From Rhizorhapis sp. SPR117 (GTDB lineage Bacteria; Pseudomonadota; Alphaproteobacteria; Sphingomonadales; Sphingomonadaceae): DNA of 57,266 nucleotides. Made by a program: the position numbers and the translations under genes. Positions 15,366 through 28,926 of the stretch are shown one piece after another; the stretch's first letter is position 1, and each line of letters begins with the position of its first letter. Location of the stretch: positions 1 through 57,266 of the forward strand of contig NZ_JAKKIE010000025.1 of the NCBI RefSeq assembly GCF_021742065.1, given 5' to 3'. The notes below the pieces were generated by a model. The model was not told the DNA's origin, ran no database searches, and was given only the letters and a program-made list of their open reading frames with translations.

Positions 15366-15383
15366 GTGACAGTTGGGTTTCAG
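15366..15383 (-). promoter_or_regulatory. PHO box before pstS, overlapping the phoR stop
   Basis: On the minus strand CTGAAAC, four bases, CTGTCAC forms the 7-4-7 direct repeat of a PHO box (consensus CTGTCAT-N4-CTGTCAT). The second half matches at six of seven positions, the first at four. TATGAA lies eight bases downstream as a possible -10. The site overlaps the phoR TGA at 15380-15382, so pstSCAB-phoU-phoB can be induced separately from phoR. Confidence 0.6.
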
Positions 15384-16630
15384 TTTGATGACAATGCAGC
15401 CGGATGGTTCGCTGAATCTGCAGGTGGGAGGTGGATGGTGATGTTGGTGCCCTTGCCAACGATGCTGCTGATATCCATCCGGCCGCGATGCCGTTCAACG
15501 ATATGCTTGACGATGGCAAGGCCCAGACCGGTGCCTCCCATCGCCCGGCTGCGACCCGAATCGACACGGTAAAATCGTTCGGTCAGGCGTGGGAGATGAT
15601 CAGGATCTATACCTTCGCTTTCATCGGTCACGGTCAATTTGACCATGGCCCCCGACCCATGTGTCAATCGAACGACGATGGGCGTATCGGGTCTTCCATA
15701 TTTGACGGAATTACTGACGAGATTGTGGAGCAGTTGCGATAGCTGCGCCTGGTCGCCATTCACGGGCGGCAGCCCGGATTCAATTTCGCAGACGACATCC
15801 ATGCCGCGCTTGCCATGGCGTTCGTGAAAGATTTTCTCCACTTCGCCAATGAGTTCTGCCAGATCGACGGGTGTATCGGGCAATTGATATTTCTCTGCCT
15901 CAATTCGCGACAGAGACATCAGATCGTCGACAAGACGCTGCATCCGCCGTGCCTCATCGAACATGATTTTCAAAAAACGATCGCGCGTTTCCCGATCCCC
16001 GCCCGCCTTGGGATCGCCCAGCGTTTCTATGAAACCCAATATGGCGGCAAGGGGCGTGCGCAGTTCATGGCTGGCATTGGCGACGAAGTCGACGCGCATC
16101 CGTTCGGCTGCATAGCTGCCGGTCCGGTCGATCAGGTGCACCATGATCCGTCCCTTGCTCATGGAAGCCGTGCGCATTTCCCAACGTTGTTCCCGCTGGC
16201 CCAGCCCAACAAGGTTGATCGAGCCGCCCGGCGTCGAGGCGCCGGGATGGGTCAGCCGTTCGGCCGCAGCAGGGTGACGAAGGGCGATGCGGACATCCTC
16301 TCCCACGATATGTGATCCCAACAGGCGCAACGCGGTGCGATTGGCGCGCACGACCCGCTCATTGGCAACGATCAGCAGCGGTTCGATAATGCCTTCCATC
16401 ATCCCGTCGAAATCGGGATTGTCCAACAGGTCCAGCGAAGGTTCCGGGTCGCGGACGACATTTGCGGCTGTTTCCGGGTGGCGGTCGATCATGATCGACA
16501 GGGCAAAAACACCCGCGACGATGGCTATCAGCGCGGTTTCCCAGCTTCCGCCAAAAACCAGCGATCCGGTTGCGCCGATCAGGATGATGAACATCGCTGC
16601 TGTGAACTGAAGGACCGATGTACGATTCAT
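15380..16630 (-). CDS. phoR: Phosphate regulon sensor histidine kinase PhoR
   Basis: Inner-membrane sensor kinase, 416 residues, that phosphorylates PhoB under phosphate limitation and is held off by PstSCAB-PhoU. Two helices occupy about residues 7-48, followed by a PAS-like domain (IIEPLLIVANERVVRANRTA), the dimerisation box FVANASHELRTPL with phosphoacceptor H188, and an ATPase domain with NLVSNSVKYG (N box), DESEGI (G1, one glycine fewer than the usual DxGxGI) and GGTGLGLAIV (G2). It is the first gene of the phosphate cluster. The 110 bp to the divergent cassette gene at 16741 must hold both promoters. Confidence 0.95.
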   Translation of the reverse strand: MNRTSVLQFTAAMFIILIGATGSLVFGGSWETALIAIVAGVFALSIMIDRHPETAANVVRDPEPSLDLLDNPDFDGMMEGIIEPLLIVANERVVRANRTALRLLGSHIVGEDVRIALRHPAAAERLTHPGASTPGGSINLVGLGQREQRWEMRTASMSKGRIMVHLIDRTGSYAAERMRVDFVANASHELRTPLAAILGFIETLGDPKAGGDRETRDRFLKIMFDEARRMQRLVDDLMSLSRIEAEKYQLPDTPVDLAELIGEVEKIFHERHGKRGMDVVCEIESGLPPVNGDQAQLSQLLHNLVSNSVKYGRPDTPIVVRLTHGSGAMVKLTVTDESEGIDPDHLPRLTERFYRVDSGRSRAMGGTGLGLAIVKHIVERHRGRMDISSIVGKGTNITIHLPPADSANHPAALSSN

Positions 16631-16740: not shown

Positions 16741-17166
16741 ATGAGCGAGATGGAAAAGCATGAGAAGCAGCCCGGGCAGGCTGAAGAGCAGAGCCGCCTG
16801 ACAGCGCCATCGCGCCGCCAGATGTTGATGATGGGCGCTGTGGCGACGTCGGCCATTGTTTCCATTCGGCCTGCATTGGCGCAAACGGCGGGATCAGTGA
16901 TGAATTGCGAGATCCCGGTTCCCGACATGGGCCGCGCCGGTCATTATATCGCCAGCGATGGCCAGTTGGTCGCACCTGACACGCCCGGCGCCTTTCCCCC
17001 GACTGGTCGCGCCTTCAAGGGTGAGGACGTCAAGGCCGCCATGCACGGACGCACACTGCCGGGCACCAGCTATGAACAGAGCAAGGCCTATATGAACTAT
17101 ATTCGCCGGTTGCAGGCCGGGAATAGCGGCTTTACCTGCTACGCCTCGCTGCAAATGCCACGCTGA
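16741..17166 (+). CDS. Tat-signal secreted protein next to the PqqD/HprK-like cassette
   Basis: A 141-residue protein whose N-terminus carries a twin-arginine signal: SRRQMLMMGA (R25-R26), a hydrophobic stretch and a cleavage site near ALAQ at 45-48. The mature part, about 93 residues, has two cysteines (C56, C133), a proline/glycine-rich middle and a C-terminal region GTSYEQSKAYMNYIRRLQ. I recognise no enzyme domain. Only 20 bp separate its stop from the PqqD-like gene, so it is probably the first gene of that operon and a candidate substrate or precursor for the cassette enzymes; this is inference. An AT-rich GATAAATATA element just upstream may be the -10 region. Confidence 0.75.
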   Translation: MSEMEKHEKQPGQAEEQSRLTAPSRRQMLMMGAVATSAIVSIRPALAQTAGSVMNCEIPVPDMGRAGHYIASDGQLVAPDTPGAFPPTGRAFKGEDVKAAMHGRTLPGTSYEQSKAYMNYIRRLQAGNSGFTCYASLQMPR

Positions 17167-17186
17167 GCGCGTTGCGATCTCATGTC

Positions 17187-17486
17187 ATGGCGGAGGATGA
17201 TGGGCAGCATCTTTATCGGGCTGAAGGTGCCAAGCACCTTCTTGTAAGGCGGCTTGATGATCTGACGCTGATATATCATCGGCGATCGGGCATGACTCAT
17301 ATGGTGAGCGCACCAGTGCCGGAAATACTGACGGCGATGGGGGATGAGGCGTTGAGCGCACCCCAAATCCTGTCGCGCCTGTCCGACCGTTTCGACCTCG
17401 CTTTGGAAGAAGAGGGATCACAGGTTGCGGTCATTGCGGCACGGCTGGAGGAATTGGCCGGGCTGGGGCTGGTGGAACGGCTGTGA
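17187..17486 (+). CDS. PqqD-like peptide chaperone (RRE-type) of an HprK-related system
   Basis: A 99-residue PqqD-fold protein; such winged-helix modules bind leader peptides and present them to modifying enzymes (RiPP recognition elements). Visible elements are the N-terminal strands LLVRRLDDLTLIYHRRSG, the helix APVPEILTAMGDEALSA and a C-terminal helix rich in Ala, Leu and Glu. NCBI names this type, as I recall, HPr-rel-A system PqqD family peptide chaperone. The start at ATG 17187 is preferred over TTG 17172, though neither has a strong ribosome-binding site. The stop overlaps the kinase start by four bases. Confidence 0.75.
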   Translation: MAEDDGQHLYRAEGAKHLLVRRLDDLTLIYHRRSGMTHMVSAPVPEILTAMGDEALSAPQILSRLSDRFDLALEEEGSQVAVIAARLEELAGLGLVERL

Positions 17487-18346
17487 GATATGAGTTTTCC
17501 GTCCGCATAGGCCCTGCTTCCTTTCGCATTGGTTCGGCCTGGGCTGCGCCTGTCGAACATTTGCGCCGGTTATATGAGAGCTATCCCGCGCCAGAGGGCG
17601 GGCTGGTCGATTTTTCCGTGCGTCTGGAGCCCGCAACGCCGTTGCGGCGGTGGTTGCGGCCATCGGTTGCCATTGCGGGCGACTATATGCTGCCTGATGC
17701 CGCGCCACTGCCGCTCGCGCAGGGCTTGCTGGCGGCGGAAATGGGCATGAACCTGCAAATGGCGCTTGGTTGGCGGCGGCATATGTTGCTGCATGCGTCC
17801 TGTGTGGAAAAGGACGGGCGCGCGCTGGTGATGACCGGGGCATCGGGATCGGGCAAGTCCACGCTGGCCGCGATGTTGGGTGAACGCGGCTGGCGGCTCA
17901 TGGGCGACGAATTCGCGTTGCTTGATGTGCAAGAAGGCGAAATTTTTGCATTTCCCCGCCTTATTTCACTGAAGAACGGCGCCATAAACGTGATGGGGCA
18001 GTGTGCCGATCCGTCGCGCTTTGGCCCATTGATGAAAGCCACGCCGAAGGGCGACATCCGCCACCTCGTCCCCTGTCCTGATGCAATTGCACGGATGGGG
18101 GAGGGCGCTATGCCCGCCATGCTGCTTTTTCCGCGATTCGGTTTTTCACCCGCGGTCCGGCCAGTGATGAAAAGCGAAAGCTTCATTCGTTTGACGCAGG
18201 CGTCGACCAATTATGTCGCACTGGGCGAAGCAGGCTTTACAGCGTTGGCCCGATTTGTCGAAACCGTGTCAGCGCACGCCATCGATTATGGATCGGGGGA
18301 AGAGGCGCTGTCGCTGGTCGAACGGTTATGGGATGCGGCAACATGA
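17483..18346 (+). CDS. HprK-related kinase A
   Basis: A 287-residue P-loop kinase related to HPr kinase/phosphorylase, starting with GTG that overlaps the PqqD-like stop (GTGA). Key elements: HAS at 104-106, P-loop GASGSGKST at 119-127 and GDE at 141-143, the acidic segment that follows the P-loop in HprK-like kinases. No HPr or PTS gene is nearby, so its target is probably not HPr; in lasso-peptide clusters homologous kinases phosphorylate the precursor peptide. The adjacent PqqD-like and nucleotidyltransferase genes support a peptide or protein modification role. Substrate unknown. Confidence 0.8.
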   Translation: MRYEFSVRIGPASFRIGSAWAAPVEHLRRLYESYPAPEGGLVDFSVRLEPATPLRRWLRPSVAIAGDYMLPDAAPLPLAQGLLAAEMGMNLQMALGWRRHMLLHASCVEKDGRALVMTGASGSGKSTLAAMLGERGWRLMGDEFALLDVQEGEIFAFPRLISLKNGAINVMGQCADPSRFGPLMKATPKGDIRHLVPCPDAIARMGEGAMPAMLLFPRFGFSPAVRPVMKSESFIRLTQASTNYVALGEAGFTALARFVETVSAHAIDYGSGEEALSLVERLWDAAT

Positions 18347-19338
18347 GTGCGCTTGTGCTGGTACAGGCACTGCGCGACCCGGCGTCGGTCACGGATCTCG
18401 ATATGGCGGGGTGGAACGGCTTGATCGCCATGGCACGGGCGGAACAATTGATCGGCAGTCTTGCCTATCGATTTGGCGGTCTTGCCCTGCCTGCCGCTGT
18501 TGAGCGGATGATGCTGGATGCGCGCCGCCATGCCACATTTGTGAGGCGGCAGGCGTTGTGGGAAGCCGATCGTGCCCGCGTCGCGCTGGCTGGGGTCGAT
18601 GCGCCGGTCATCCTGCTGAAAGGCACGGCGTATGTGGCCGCCGGATTGCGGGCCGGAGTGGGCCGACATATTGGCGATCTTGACATCATGGTCCCGCGCC
18701 CGGCGCTAACGAGGGTGGAAAAGGCGTTGATCTCCGCCGGTTGGGAATGGGTGAAGCCCGATCCTTATGACGATCAATATTATCGCCGCTGGATGCATGA
18801 ATTGCCGCCGCTCATCCACAAGGAGCGCGACCGGATGATCGATGTGCATCATACGATATTGCCATTGACCGCGCGACAGAGGCCCGATGCCGATGCGATG
18901 ATCGCCGACCGTCTGAAACTGGACAACGGCCTGTCCGTCCTGGCGCCCGAGGATATGGTGCTGCATTGCATTGCGCACCTGTTTGCTGATGGCGACCTAG
19001 CCGGGGGCTTGCGGAATTTATGGGATCTGCATTGCCTGTTGGATGATTTTGGCACTAACCCCGCATTTGCGGAGCGACTGGAGCAACGGGCGGCGCGCCA
19101 TCAGCTTGCGGCGCATCTGAAGCGCGCTGTCAGGCTGTCGTCCTATCTTTATGGTGCCGGAGCGGACCTGACTCTCTCCGACCGATTCTATATCCGTCGC
19201 TTGCTCGCCCGTGATGAGTGGGGCCGGGAAACGCAAAAGCTGGCGCGGCTTGCCTTCTATGTGCGCTCGCACTGGCTGCGCATGCCGCCGCTGATGCTGG
19301 CGCGGCACTTATGGACCAAGTGGCGCAAGGGGCGATAA
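18343..19338 (+). CDS. Nucleotidyltransferase-family protein of the HprK/PqqD cassette
   Basis: A 331-residue protein of the uncharacterised nucleotidyltransferase group (PF14907 type). The N-terminal helical part is followed by the nucleotidyltransferase core: LLKGTAYVA at about 91-99 and GRHIGDLDIMV at 107-117, with the metal-binding pair D112/D114, then a C-terminal helical region with basic tail WTKWRKGR. ATG 18343 overlaps the kinase stop by four bases, so PqqD-like protein, kinase and transferase are translationally coupled. The same trio occurs in paeninodin-type lasso clusters, where the transferase acts on a phosphorylated peptide; here the substrate is unknown. Confidence 0.75.
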   Translation: MSALVLVQALRDPASVTDLDMAGWNGLIAMARAEQLIGSLAYRFGGLALPAAVERMMLDARRHATFVRRQALWEADRARVALAGVDAPVILLKGTAYVAAGLRAGVGRHIGDLDIMVPRPALTRVEKALISAGWEWVKPDPYDDQYYRRWMHELPPLIHKERDRMIDVHHTILPLTARQRPDADAMIADRLKLDNGLSVLAPEDMVLHCIAHLFADGDLAGGLRNLWDLHCLLDDFGTNPAFAERLEQRAARHQLAAHLKRAVRLSSYLYGAGADLTLSDRFYIRRLLARDEWGRETQKLARLAFYVRSHWLRMPPLMLARHLWTKWRKGR

Positions 19339-21836: not shown

Positions 21837-22478
21837 GTGTCAGTTCAAAAAGCCTTCACCGCCAGCCTCGTCCTTTTGTCGCTTGGCGGCTGCGCCAAGG
21901 TTGGCGACATCGATGTTACAGGCGGCATTGTCGCCGCGCGCTCGGCCTGCCCCATGGTCGGGATTCCTAATTATACCGGGGACATTACGCTGTTCAACCC
22001 ACCCGAAAGTCGCGAGGCGCGGGCGATTGACATAGTCGCCAATATAACGAACCTGCGGTCGACCTGCGATGACAGCGGCGCGCAAATCTACACCCAGGCG
22101 ACATTCGACGTGCTGGCCCGACGCAGCGACCCCACTGGCGCGCGCGACGTGACCCTGCCCTATTTCGCAACGGTCATGCGCGGCGGAACGGCCGTGGTGT
22201 CAAAGCGTGTCGGTCAGGTCACGGTGCATTTCGAAGATGGCCAATATCGCGCCAGCGCAAGTGATTCGGCGCAATCCTATGTGGACAAGGGACAGGCCAC
22301 ATTGCCTGCGGACATACAGGAACGCATCACGCGCAAGCGTAAGGCGGGCGATTCCGATGCCGCGGTTGATCCCATGGCTGATCCTGCGGTTCGCGCGGCG
22401 TTGCAACGAACCAGTTTTGAGTTGCTCGTCGGGTTCAATCTGACCCAGGACCAGCTCAAATATAATGTGACGCGTTGA
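21837..22478 (+). CDS. Putative outer-membrane or periplasmic lipoprotein, 213 aa
   Basis: Starts with GTG at 21837, supported by AAGGGA six bases upstream. The first 19 residues form a lipoprotein signal (basic start, hydrophobic core VLLSLGGC, lipidated Cys19). The mature part of about 195 residues has no motif that I recognise; it includes a segment naming repeated beta-like stretches ([30 protein letters not shown]) and ends [12 protein letters not shown]. It is divergent from ispH and lies 60 bp before argS. Two further cysteines may form a disulfide. Conserved hypothetical lipoprotein; function unknown. Confidence 0.8.
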
Positions 22479-27466: not shown

Positions 27467-27703
27467 ATGGGTGGCCTTAGCATCTGGCATTGGCTGATTG
27501 TGGGTATCGTCGTGATGCTGCTGTTTGGCAAAGGCCGGTTTTCCGACATGATGGGCGATGTGGCCAAGGGTTTGAAAAGCTTCAAAAGGGGGCTTACCGA
27601 TGACGAGGAAAGCCCCCCTGTAAAACCCGCCAGCCGCATTGATTCCCAATCCGCTTCGGAAAAAACGGCGCAATCGGTAACGGAAGAGCACAAGCAGGGC
27701 TGA
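27467..27703 (+). CDS. tatA: Sec-independent translocase subunit TatA
   Basis: A 78-residue pore-forming subunit of the Tat protein export system. One N-terminal membrane helix ([16 protein letters not shown]) is followed by the FGKGR hinge, the amphipathic helix [18 protein letters not shown] and an acidic tail. AAGGAG lies eight bases upstream. The Tat system here would serve, among others, the twin-arginine protein at 16741. Confidence 0.96.
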
Positions 27704-27742
27704 TCGGCTTTACGCCGTCACATTATCGGATAACAGAGCCAG

Positions 27743-28150
27743 ATGTTTGATATCGGTTCAACCGAGCTTCTGCTCGTCGCAATCGTGGCCATCATTGTCA
27801 TAGGCCCGAAGGATTTGCCGCGCGCGCTCTATAAAGTCGGACAGATCGTTGCCAAGGCGCGAGGCATGGCGCGACATTTCCGCACCGGCCTCGATACGAT
27901 GGTCCGGGAAGCTGAACTGGAAGAAATGGAAAAGAAATGGGCCGCTGAGAATAAGCGGATCATGCAGCAATGGCCAACCGATGAAGGTTCAACGGACGCT
28001 ACAGACTCTTTGGCCGAGCCGTCGACCGATGTAACCAGGATTCCTGCCAAGGGTGAAGAAGCACCTGTTGCTGGCGACTTGCCGTCGGCCGATCCCTATG
28101 ACGTTTCCGCGCCTTCAAGCCCGGCAGCAAAGGATGGTTCGGCGGTATGA
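27743..28150 (+). CDS. tatB: Sec-independent translocase subunit TatB
   Basis: A 135-residue receptor subunit of the Tat translocase: N-terminal helix [20 protein letters not shown] with conserved Glu and Gly-Pro (IGPKDLP), a long amphipathic helix to about residue 75 and a loosely conserved acidic tail. It is distinguished from TatA by its length and the GPKDLPR motif. The stop overlaps the tatC ATG by four bases. Confidence 0.95.
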
Positions 28151-28926
28151 GCGATATTGACGACAGCCGCGCGCCGTTGCTCGACCATTTGATCGAGCTG
28201 CGCACGCGGCTGCTTTGGTGTGTGGGAACCCTGCTGGTCTCCTTTGCCGTATGTTTCTATTTCGCCAGTGCGATATTCGGTTTCCTCGTTTACCCCCTCA
28301 CCGAAGCTTTTGGCGAAGGCAAGGGGCGGTTGGTCTTCACGAAGCTTTACGAAGCCTTTTTCGTTGACGTGAAAGTGGCGCTGTTCGCGGCTTTTTTCGT
28401 GTCGTTTCCGATCATCGCCAATCAGCTTTGGGCCTTTGTGGCGCCAGGTCTTTATACAAAGGAAAAAAGGGCGTTCTTGCCCTTCCTGATTGCAACGCCC
28501 GTGCTGTTCCTCTTGGGTGCGGCACTGGCCTATTATGTCGTTATGCCGACGGCCTTTCACTTTTTCCTGAGCTTTGAAGGCACGACTGGCGGGCTTGCTA
28601 TAGAGGCGTTGCCCAGCGCGGACAGCTACCTGTCGCTGGTGATGCAGTTCATTCTCGCTTTTGGCATCAGTTTTTTGATGCCGGTGTTGTTGATGCTGCT
28701 TAATCGTGCGGGCTTGGTCAGTCGGGAACAGCTTGTCGGTTTGCGCCGTTACATGATCGTGTTCGCGTTTGTCGTGGCCGCCGTGTTGACGCCGCCCGAC
28801 GTCGTCTCACAGCTTATGTTGGCGGTGCCGCTGATCCTGCTTTATGAAATCACGCTTGTTGCAATCTGGTTCACCGATCGCAGGTCAAGCAAGAAGCAAG
28901 ACGAAGATATAGCGGCGGCTAACTAG
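28147..28926 (+). CDS. tatC: Sec-independent translocase subunit TatC
   Basis: Six-helix core of the Tat translocase, 259 residues, which binds the twin-arginine motif. The conserved N-terminal element [13 protein letters not shown], the [12 protein letters not shown] loop and the late [12 protein letters not shown] and TPPDVVSQ motifs are present. The 3' end overlaps the convergent antiporter gene by eight bases, leaving no intergenic terminator. tatABC ends the argS-to-tat run. Confidence 0.96.

Follow-up and report, generated by a model that had tools for sequence, protein, structure and literature searches.

HprK-like kinases of described peptide-modifying systems phosphorylate one serine of a precursor, sometimes several times (PMC13381572, PMC10368454), and in the case of BsfK the phosphorylation of serine is strongly accelerated by a precursor recognition element (RRE) (PMC10368454). 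Kinases of lasso peptide clusters are reported to use a His-Lys-Asp-Asp catalytic set; the placing of hexoses on phosphoserine requires the nucleotidyltransferase homologue PsmN, which may or may not be the glycosyltransferase itself (PMC9266682). An RRE-kinase-nucleotidyltransferase logic without a lasso cyclase is already published for the LPP system of Bacillota (PMC13381572). We analyzed a 57,266-nucleotide stretch of DNA from Rhizorhapis sp. SPR117 (Sphingomonadales; contig NZ_JAKKIE010000025.1, positions 1–57,266, forward strand; hereafter the window), which carries a trio of genes for a PqqD-like protein, an HprK-related kinase and a PF14907 nucleotidyltransferase. The trio is preceded by a gene for a small protein with a twin-arginine translocation (Tat) signal and a C-terminal [ST]CxxS motif, so the window cassette holds at least four genes, and this protein is probably the partner that the trio seemed to lack.

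The trio genes all lie on the plus strand. The first (17187–17486, with an ATG start at 17187 chosen by us) encodes a 99-amino-acid PqqD_rel_X protein, a proposed RRE-type adaptor (TIGR04353, 55.9 bits against a cut-off of 35, E = 6.3e-15); the second (17483–18346, GTG start) encodes a 287-amino-acid HprK_rel_A kinase (TIGR04352, 237.6 bits against 200, E = 1.4e-70); and the third (18343–19338) encodes the nucleotidyltransferase of 331 amino acids (PF14907, 164.9 bits against 31.2, E = 3.3e-48). Kinase and adaptor both exceed the curated cut-offs of the NCBI HPr-rel-A families. An initial annotation of this DNA had described the trio as joined by four-base overlaps, and this holds at both junctions (GTGA between the PqqD-like and kinase genes, ATGA between the kinase and nucleotidyltransferase genes). 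We take a PF14907 partner inside the operon to be an association of the HPr-rel-A system; one is present in the window operon, and a relative was found in all 80 related loci described below. The kinase scored 21.4 bits against the canonical HPr kinase/phosphorylase model TIGR00679 (cut-off 240), which places it outside that family, and the nearest HprK chain of known structure matched it at E = 0.0073. For the nucleotidyltransferase, a search up to E = 10 returned no sequence relative of known structure.

The kinase P-loop (GASGSGKST) is intact, as had been annotated, and the catalytic residues are kept: conserved features of 31 aligned kinases are the His preceding this loop, the Lys within it and an Asp-Glu pair. 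In all 31, Glu stands in place of the second catalytic Asp reported for the lasso kinases, which gives the window kinase a His-Lys-Asp-Glu set in contrast to their His-Lys-Asp-Asp. The nucleotidyltransferase has the active-site pattern KGxAY...GR...D(I/L/V)D, and K93, G94, R108, D112, D114, H152, P155, P156, D167, H169 and H170 are identical in 24 of 24 aligned sequences. The kinase family is large, with 5149 relatives at E <= 0.001 among 7999 candidates scored, a count that possibly includes wider kin. At three loci (L159–L161) a tetratricopeptide repeat protein of approximately 565 amino acids, sulfotransferase-like by eye, is encoded between the kinase and nucleotidyltransferase genes.

Positions 16741–17166 (plus strand) form a gene of their own, whose stop lies 20 bases ahead of the PqqD-like start. 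The initial annotation had given the whole interval 16741–19338 to the trio and called the cassette minimal; the trio fills 17187–19338, the remainder is a separate gene that had gone unmentioned, and with at least four genes the word minimal does not apply. The small neighboring gene that was suggested to co-occur with the trio turns out to be this one, beginning at the first base of that interval. It encodes a 141-amino-acid protein, our proposed substrate, which was recognized from its signal (read by eye), from alignment and from co-occurrence. The twin-arginine signal, SRRQMLMMGAVATSAIVSIRPALA, is followed directly by Q and is probably cleaved after ALA; signal type and cleavage point were both judged by eye. 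The twin arginine, hydrophobic stretch and A-x-A expected at the N terminus of a Tat substrate are all present in the alignments, and we propose that export is Tat dependent. The mature protein would have approximately 94 amino acids and two cysteines, with the C-terminal sequence TCYASLQMPR (C terminus GFTCYASLQMPR). A conserved C-terminal stretch, NSGFTCYASLQMPR, covers residues 128–141 (17122–17163, plus strand) and is supported by the family alignment, by the motif tests and by a second Tat family; we propose that Ser136, within its [ST]CxxS motif, accepts the phosphate. The protein had no Pfam or NCBIfam match at E <= 1, nor did six Tat partners from other loci match any NCBIfam model. 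It has 3409 relatives at E <= 0.001. In an alignment of 25 members of this window-type family (A1), the signal and the C terminus are strongly conserved and the initial ~20 residues are variable. The motif is present in 119 of the 120 relatives listed, the exception (P0159) having a different end that is perhaps an artifact.

Gene presence was scored by tblastn in 80 loci (L001–L080), the best 80 of 232 kinase relatives. All 80 contain the kinase and the nucleotidyltransferase, and 79 contain the PqqD-like gene, in agreement with the expectation that the trio recurs as a unit across genomes. A relative of the Tat gene is located just upstream of the trio in 79 of 80, and the sole exception (L031) starts at a contig edge. 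We also examined 196 Sphingomonadales genomes, of which 88 contain a kinase above the TIGR04352 cut-off of 200 bits. Family A1 matches 37 of the 196, 31 of them strongly, and all 37 fall within the 88 kinase-positive genomes (hypergeometric value for the 31 strong matches, 5e-13, with kinship ignored). The second-largest Tat family (A2, 15 members) matches 48 genomes; 47 are over the kinase cut-off, and the other (G097) has a kinase at 197.7 bits. A strong window-type match was lacking in 57 kinase-positive genomes, 40 of which were fetched, in addition to G089, seen as locus L196. In 39 of these 40, the kinase gene is preceded at no more than 1.5 kb, in the same orientation, by a different open reading frame (ORF) that encodes both a twin-arginine signal and the motif. 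In the 40th, G057, the kinase and nucleotidyltransferase genes stand alone (L113), and a Tat-motif protein is encoded on another contig (L187) with a PqqD-like gene adjacent. We conclude that the Tat gene belongs with the trio because of its adjacency in 79 of 80 loci and its co-occurrence across the 196 genomes. Its presence also supports the earlier suggestion that lasso peptides are not the target of the trio.

Conserved gene order by itself could produce this pattern if Sphingomonadales simply retain the phoR-pst region, with no functional link between its genes. The divergent neighbor of the window cassette is a PhoR-like histidine kinase gene (15380–16630, minus strand), conserved in this location in the order, and probably plays no role in the mechanism. 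Of the Sphingomonadales loci scored, 73 of 78 and 33 of 40 have a divergent PhoR gene upstream, at most 4.5 kb from the kinase. Five genomes have the Tat gene and the trio unlinked (G039, G084, G101, G123 and G171); in each, the Tat gene still adjoins a PhoR-like gene while the PqqD-like gene went with the kinase. These unlinked sets nevertheless co-occur within each genome. Outside the order we took 25 loci from a sample of the phylum Pseudomonadota (L151–L170 and L182–L186), in which 15 Tat ORFs were found by script and the rest by six-frame scans and manual reading. An ORF with a twin-arginine signal adjoins the trio in 25 of 25 (in L162 on the strand opposite to the kinase), 18 of them with the motif, yet PhoR occupies that position in none of the 22 scored. 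The unlinked and the non-Sphingomonadales sets largely refute retained gene order as the explanation, and we give it almost no weight.

The motif was defined as [ST]CxxS followed by one of ILFVMAYT, inside the final 60 residues. An automatic picker, which came back without a Tat ORF at 23 loci and without a kinase at 10 (several were recovered manually or by a six-frame rescan), yielded 124 upstream proteins, and removal of three wrong ORFs (L006, L167 and L181) left 121. The motif is present in 117 of these 121, which form 21 clusters at 40% identity; 17 clusters contain it, in 15 cases within the last 20 residues. When the sequence after residue 40 was shuffled, an average of 0.16 clusters, and at most 3 of 21, contained the motif in 2000 rounds. 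It was found in 12 of 1517 other ORFs from the same loci, a control set that possibly includes a few true Tat partners missed by the picker, and in 0 of 120 kinases. A chance origin of the motif is rejected by the shuffles and the control ORFs. All 14 proteins found with a Tat protein from Magnetococcales, query included, have the motif. In family A2 the invariant positions are in the signal, an N-terminal piece and PG[IV]SCxxS, with just three between. Between conserved ends, many A2 members (L126, for example) have extended Asp stretches midway along the mature protein.

The Tat protein could be the substrate with a residue other than the motif Ser modified, in which case the motif would be a structural or recognition element, such as an adaptor docking site or half of a disulfide. 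In each of the 17 cluster representatives with the motif, a further Cys lies 28–34 residues past the twin arginine, and counting Cys from residue 46 onward gives an even number in 114 of 121 proteins. Proteins that lack the motif retain the Tat signal without the tail, and BsfK and LppK modify Ser3 of the core and not a C-terminal Ser (PMC10368454, PMC13381572). On the other hand, a disulfide needs the Cys alone, and both the Ser and the Ser/Thr before the Cys are kept across the 17 clusters. The partner in L168 has a motif-like SAAAYTSI near its end, with Ala in place of Cys and the Ser retained, although this is a single case. Overall, we regard modification of a different residue as unlikely, and consider the motif Ser as the modified site to be an evenly balanced call.

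The kinase tree comprises 79 rows and was built by a quick method; it has some long branches, and many Tat types are represented by one row. For counting, the seven rows with no called Tat protein were treated as one group and two hand-added rows as their own types. Tat types required 25 changes on this tree (22 when the seven uncalled rows were left out) against a minimum of 23 and a mean of 53.8 after shuffling, and none of 200 shuffles was as low, in line with co-inheritance of Tat protein and kinase. The motif, present in 68 of the 72 rows with a called Tat protein, required two changes. Five of the six motif-less loci from outside the order that are on the tree fall in one weakly supported fork, with L168 outside it.

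Eight genomes have an additional, orphan Tat-[ST]CxxS protein of 193–206 amino acids on a contig other than that of the kinase (L188–L195). The up to three genes that flank each orphan on either side include no member of the trio (a contig end truncates L193). In L196, two Tat-[ST]CxxS genes stand in tandem ahead of the trio. The orphan genes of L188–L194 have an ECF (extracytoplasmic function) sigma factor-like neighbor, often with a small YCII-like protein, both named by eye. A single enzyme set, together with dispersed proteins whose common features are chiefly a signal and a tail, has the look of a system that modifies multiple substrates.

The orphans also bear on another reading, in which the target of the trio would be a regulatory protein, a glycan carrier or a small molecule, and the Tat protein would work with the product outside the cell as its accessory or effector. 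Glycan chemistry is close by: a GT4-like glycosyltransferase gene is inserted between the Tat and PqqD-like genes in 22 of 80 loci, mostly from Sphingobium (e.g., L009:4492-5652), and XrtA-type glycosyltransferase and amidotransferase genes are near the trio in L152, outside Sphingomonadales. By eye, L154 and L157 resemble L152, whereas L153, L163 and L168–L170 do not. The L009 glycosyltransferase, the only one scanned, was under all NCBIfam cut-offs (best model, TIGR03088). RRE-type adaptors, however, normally bind peptides, and in G057 the PqqD-like gene sits beside the Tat gene and away from the kinase, although in the five unlinked genomes it accompanies the kinase. Dispersed orphan paralogues with mainly the signal and tail in common resemble substrates rather than subunits. 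A target other than the Tat protein is therefore improbable in our view, and it is quite likely that the Tat proteins are substrates of the trio. The inserted glycosyltransferase hints at a sugar in the product.

Our favored model, which we hold to be probable with some reservation, is a four-gene modification and Tat-export cassette in which the trio phosphorylates and caps an exported precursor. The partnership, the co-occurrence, the motif and the conservation of catalytic residues are computational results. We infer the chemistry of the model from the lasso and LPP systems, and binding, phosphorylation, the site, a second modification, the disulfide and a surface role all belong to that inferred part. 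The first gene product would be the Tat-exported precursor, bound in the cytoplasm by the PqqD-type adaptor; the HprK_rel_A kinase would phosphorylate a Ser of the precursor, most likely that of [ST]CxxS, and the PF14907 enzyme would cap the phosphate with a nucleotide or sugar. PsmN is, we presume, also a PF14907 member. The addition of a nucleotide or sugar is the less secure step and may well not occur. The Tat pathway translocates proteins that are already folded, and this would fit a substrate that is modified before it leaves the cytoplasm. The finished protein would then be exported by Tat and its signal cut at the A-x-A site, and a disulfide between the post-signal Cys and the motif Cys may form outside the cell. 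One trio may serve several substrates that share little beyond signal and motif. Extended to Pseudomonadota in general, this would be Tat-coupled tagging: a two-part tag, made up of the Tat signal and a C-terminal [ST]CxxS, would direct a phosphate-linked nucleotide or glycan to the motif Ser of several proteins, sometimes more than one per genome, before export, perhaps tying them to surface polysaccharide. We offer this generalization tentatively and think it rather doubtful as a whole.

Several results weigh against the model. The Tat pattern used here also fits 98 of 806 other ORFs, so a Tat-like ORF by itself is weak evidence, and many of the 48 genome matches of A2 are weak and limited to the signal region. 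Because the genomes share kinship, the shuffle and hypergeometric figures overstate independence. The motif is absent from four of the 21 clusters and from seven of the 25 loci outside Sphingomonadales (L151, L153, L163, L167, L168, L169 and L170); among the partners in L151, L153, L163, L167 and L170, two have a Cys-x-x-Ser after the signal (RCSVSG in L153 and QCSLSG in L163) and possibly represent another substrate class. The conserved Cys-x-x-Ser could itself have a structural role, for instance in a disulfide that has a capping Ser. Lasso and LPP adaptors bind a YxxP motif, which is not conserved in A1; there, the fitting site of this LPP leader motif, after Y69, has Ser in the window protein and Ala, Pro or Ser in its relatives. 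Finally, deletion of the nucleotidyltransferase gene gave no detectable change in the LPP study (PMC13381572).

The export machinery that the proposed substrate would need is encoded approximately 8 kb downstream of the trio, as tatABC (27467–28926, plus strand): tatA at 27467–27703, tatB at 27743–28150 and tatC at 28147–28926. The Pfam matches in this region are PF02416 and PF00902; tatB had no Pfam match at 1e-5 and was named from sequence and position only. On the other side, the cassette is divergent to phoR-pst in most Sphingomonadales loci scored. A scan of 77 phoR-Tat intergenic regions with a Pho-box consensus gave a mean of 8.65 of 14 against 8.23 for shuffled sequences. Three of the 77 related regions scored 11 or 12 (~0.3 expected); the best score in the window was 8 of 14, and a Pho regulon link for its cassette is unsupported, though a Pho box may exist at other loci. 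A lipoprotein-like ORF of 213 amino acids at 21837–22478 had no Pfam match at 1e-5.

In the literature searched, from which most subscription journals and all bioRxiv preprints fell outside coverage, we found no paper on the Tat partner and its motif, none on HPr-rel-A, TIGR04352, TIGR04353 or PF14907, and none that links RiPPs to twin-arginine signals, PqqD and a kinase. Our finding proposes likely substrates, and a likely site, for a large kinase family. If true, RRE-guided phosphorylation would reach beyond short peptides to proteins that are folded and exported by Tat, and a new surface-protein modification system with many substrates would be defined.

Among known systems, LPP has, like the window, a discrete RRE, an HprK-like kinase and an NTP transferase with no lasso cyclase; it is often in polysaccharide loci, its kinase places phosphates on a single Ser, its precursors begin with the leader YxxPxVLxHQxIxFETxxS, and a SipW-like peptidase together with an MsbA-like exporter belongs to the system (PMC13381572). 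The candidate substrate in the window is larger, with a Tat signal and a C-terminal [ST]CxxS, and neither a SipW-like peptidase nor an MsbA-like exporter was seen among ten scanned neighbors, although no model search was aimed at them. The paeninodin, pseudomycoidin and SyanK systems also pair a kinase with a nucleotidyltransferase-like enzyme, and a paeninodin-type kinase acts on the C-terminal Ser of its precursor (PMC9266682); in contrast to such short, Ser-ending precursors, our candidate has 141 amino acids and a Tat signal and ends in QMPR. The BsfK/BsfB1/BsfN cluster shares with the window a nucleotidyltransferase gene and, under our proposal, RRE-aided phosphorylation of an internal Ser, but it has lasso peptidase and cyclase genes and a YxxPxL leader motif (PMC10368454). 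The absence of a lasso cyclase from the window, as initially annotated, agrees with a tblastn search using one XrtA amidotransferase query, in which the best match to this asparagine-synthase-type enzyme was 28 residues at E = 0.72, and a lasso peptide reading was rejected from this single query. In the NCBI HPr-rel-A system, TIGR04352 and TIGR04353 name the kinase and the adaptor, and the Tat protein matches no family. A similar many-to-one logic is found in PEP-CTERM/exosortase and rhombosortase systems, where short signals are common to different exported proteins and one enzyme set serves them. There, the C-terminal signals are cut by a protease, whereas the window encodes a kinase and a nucleotidyltransferase that are thought to act before Tat export.

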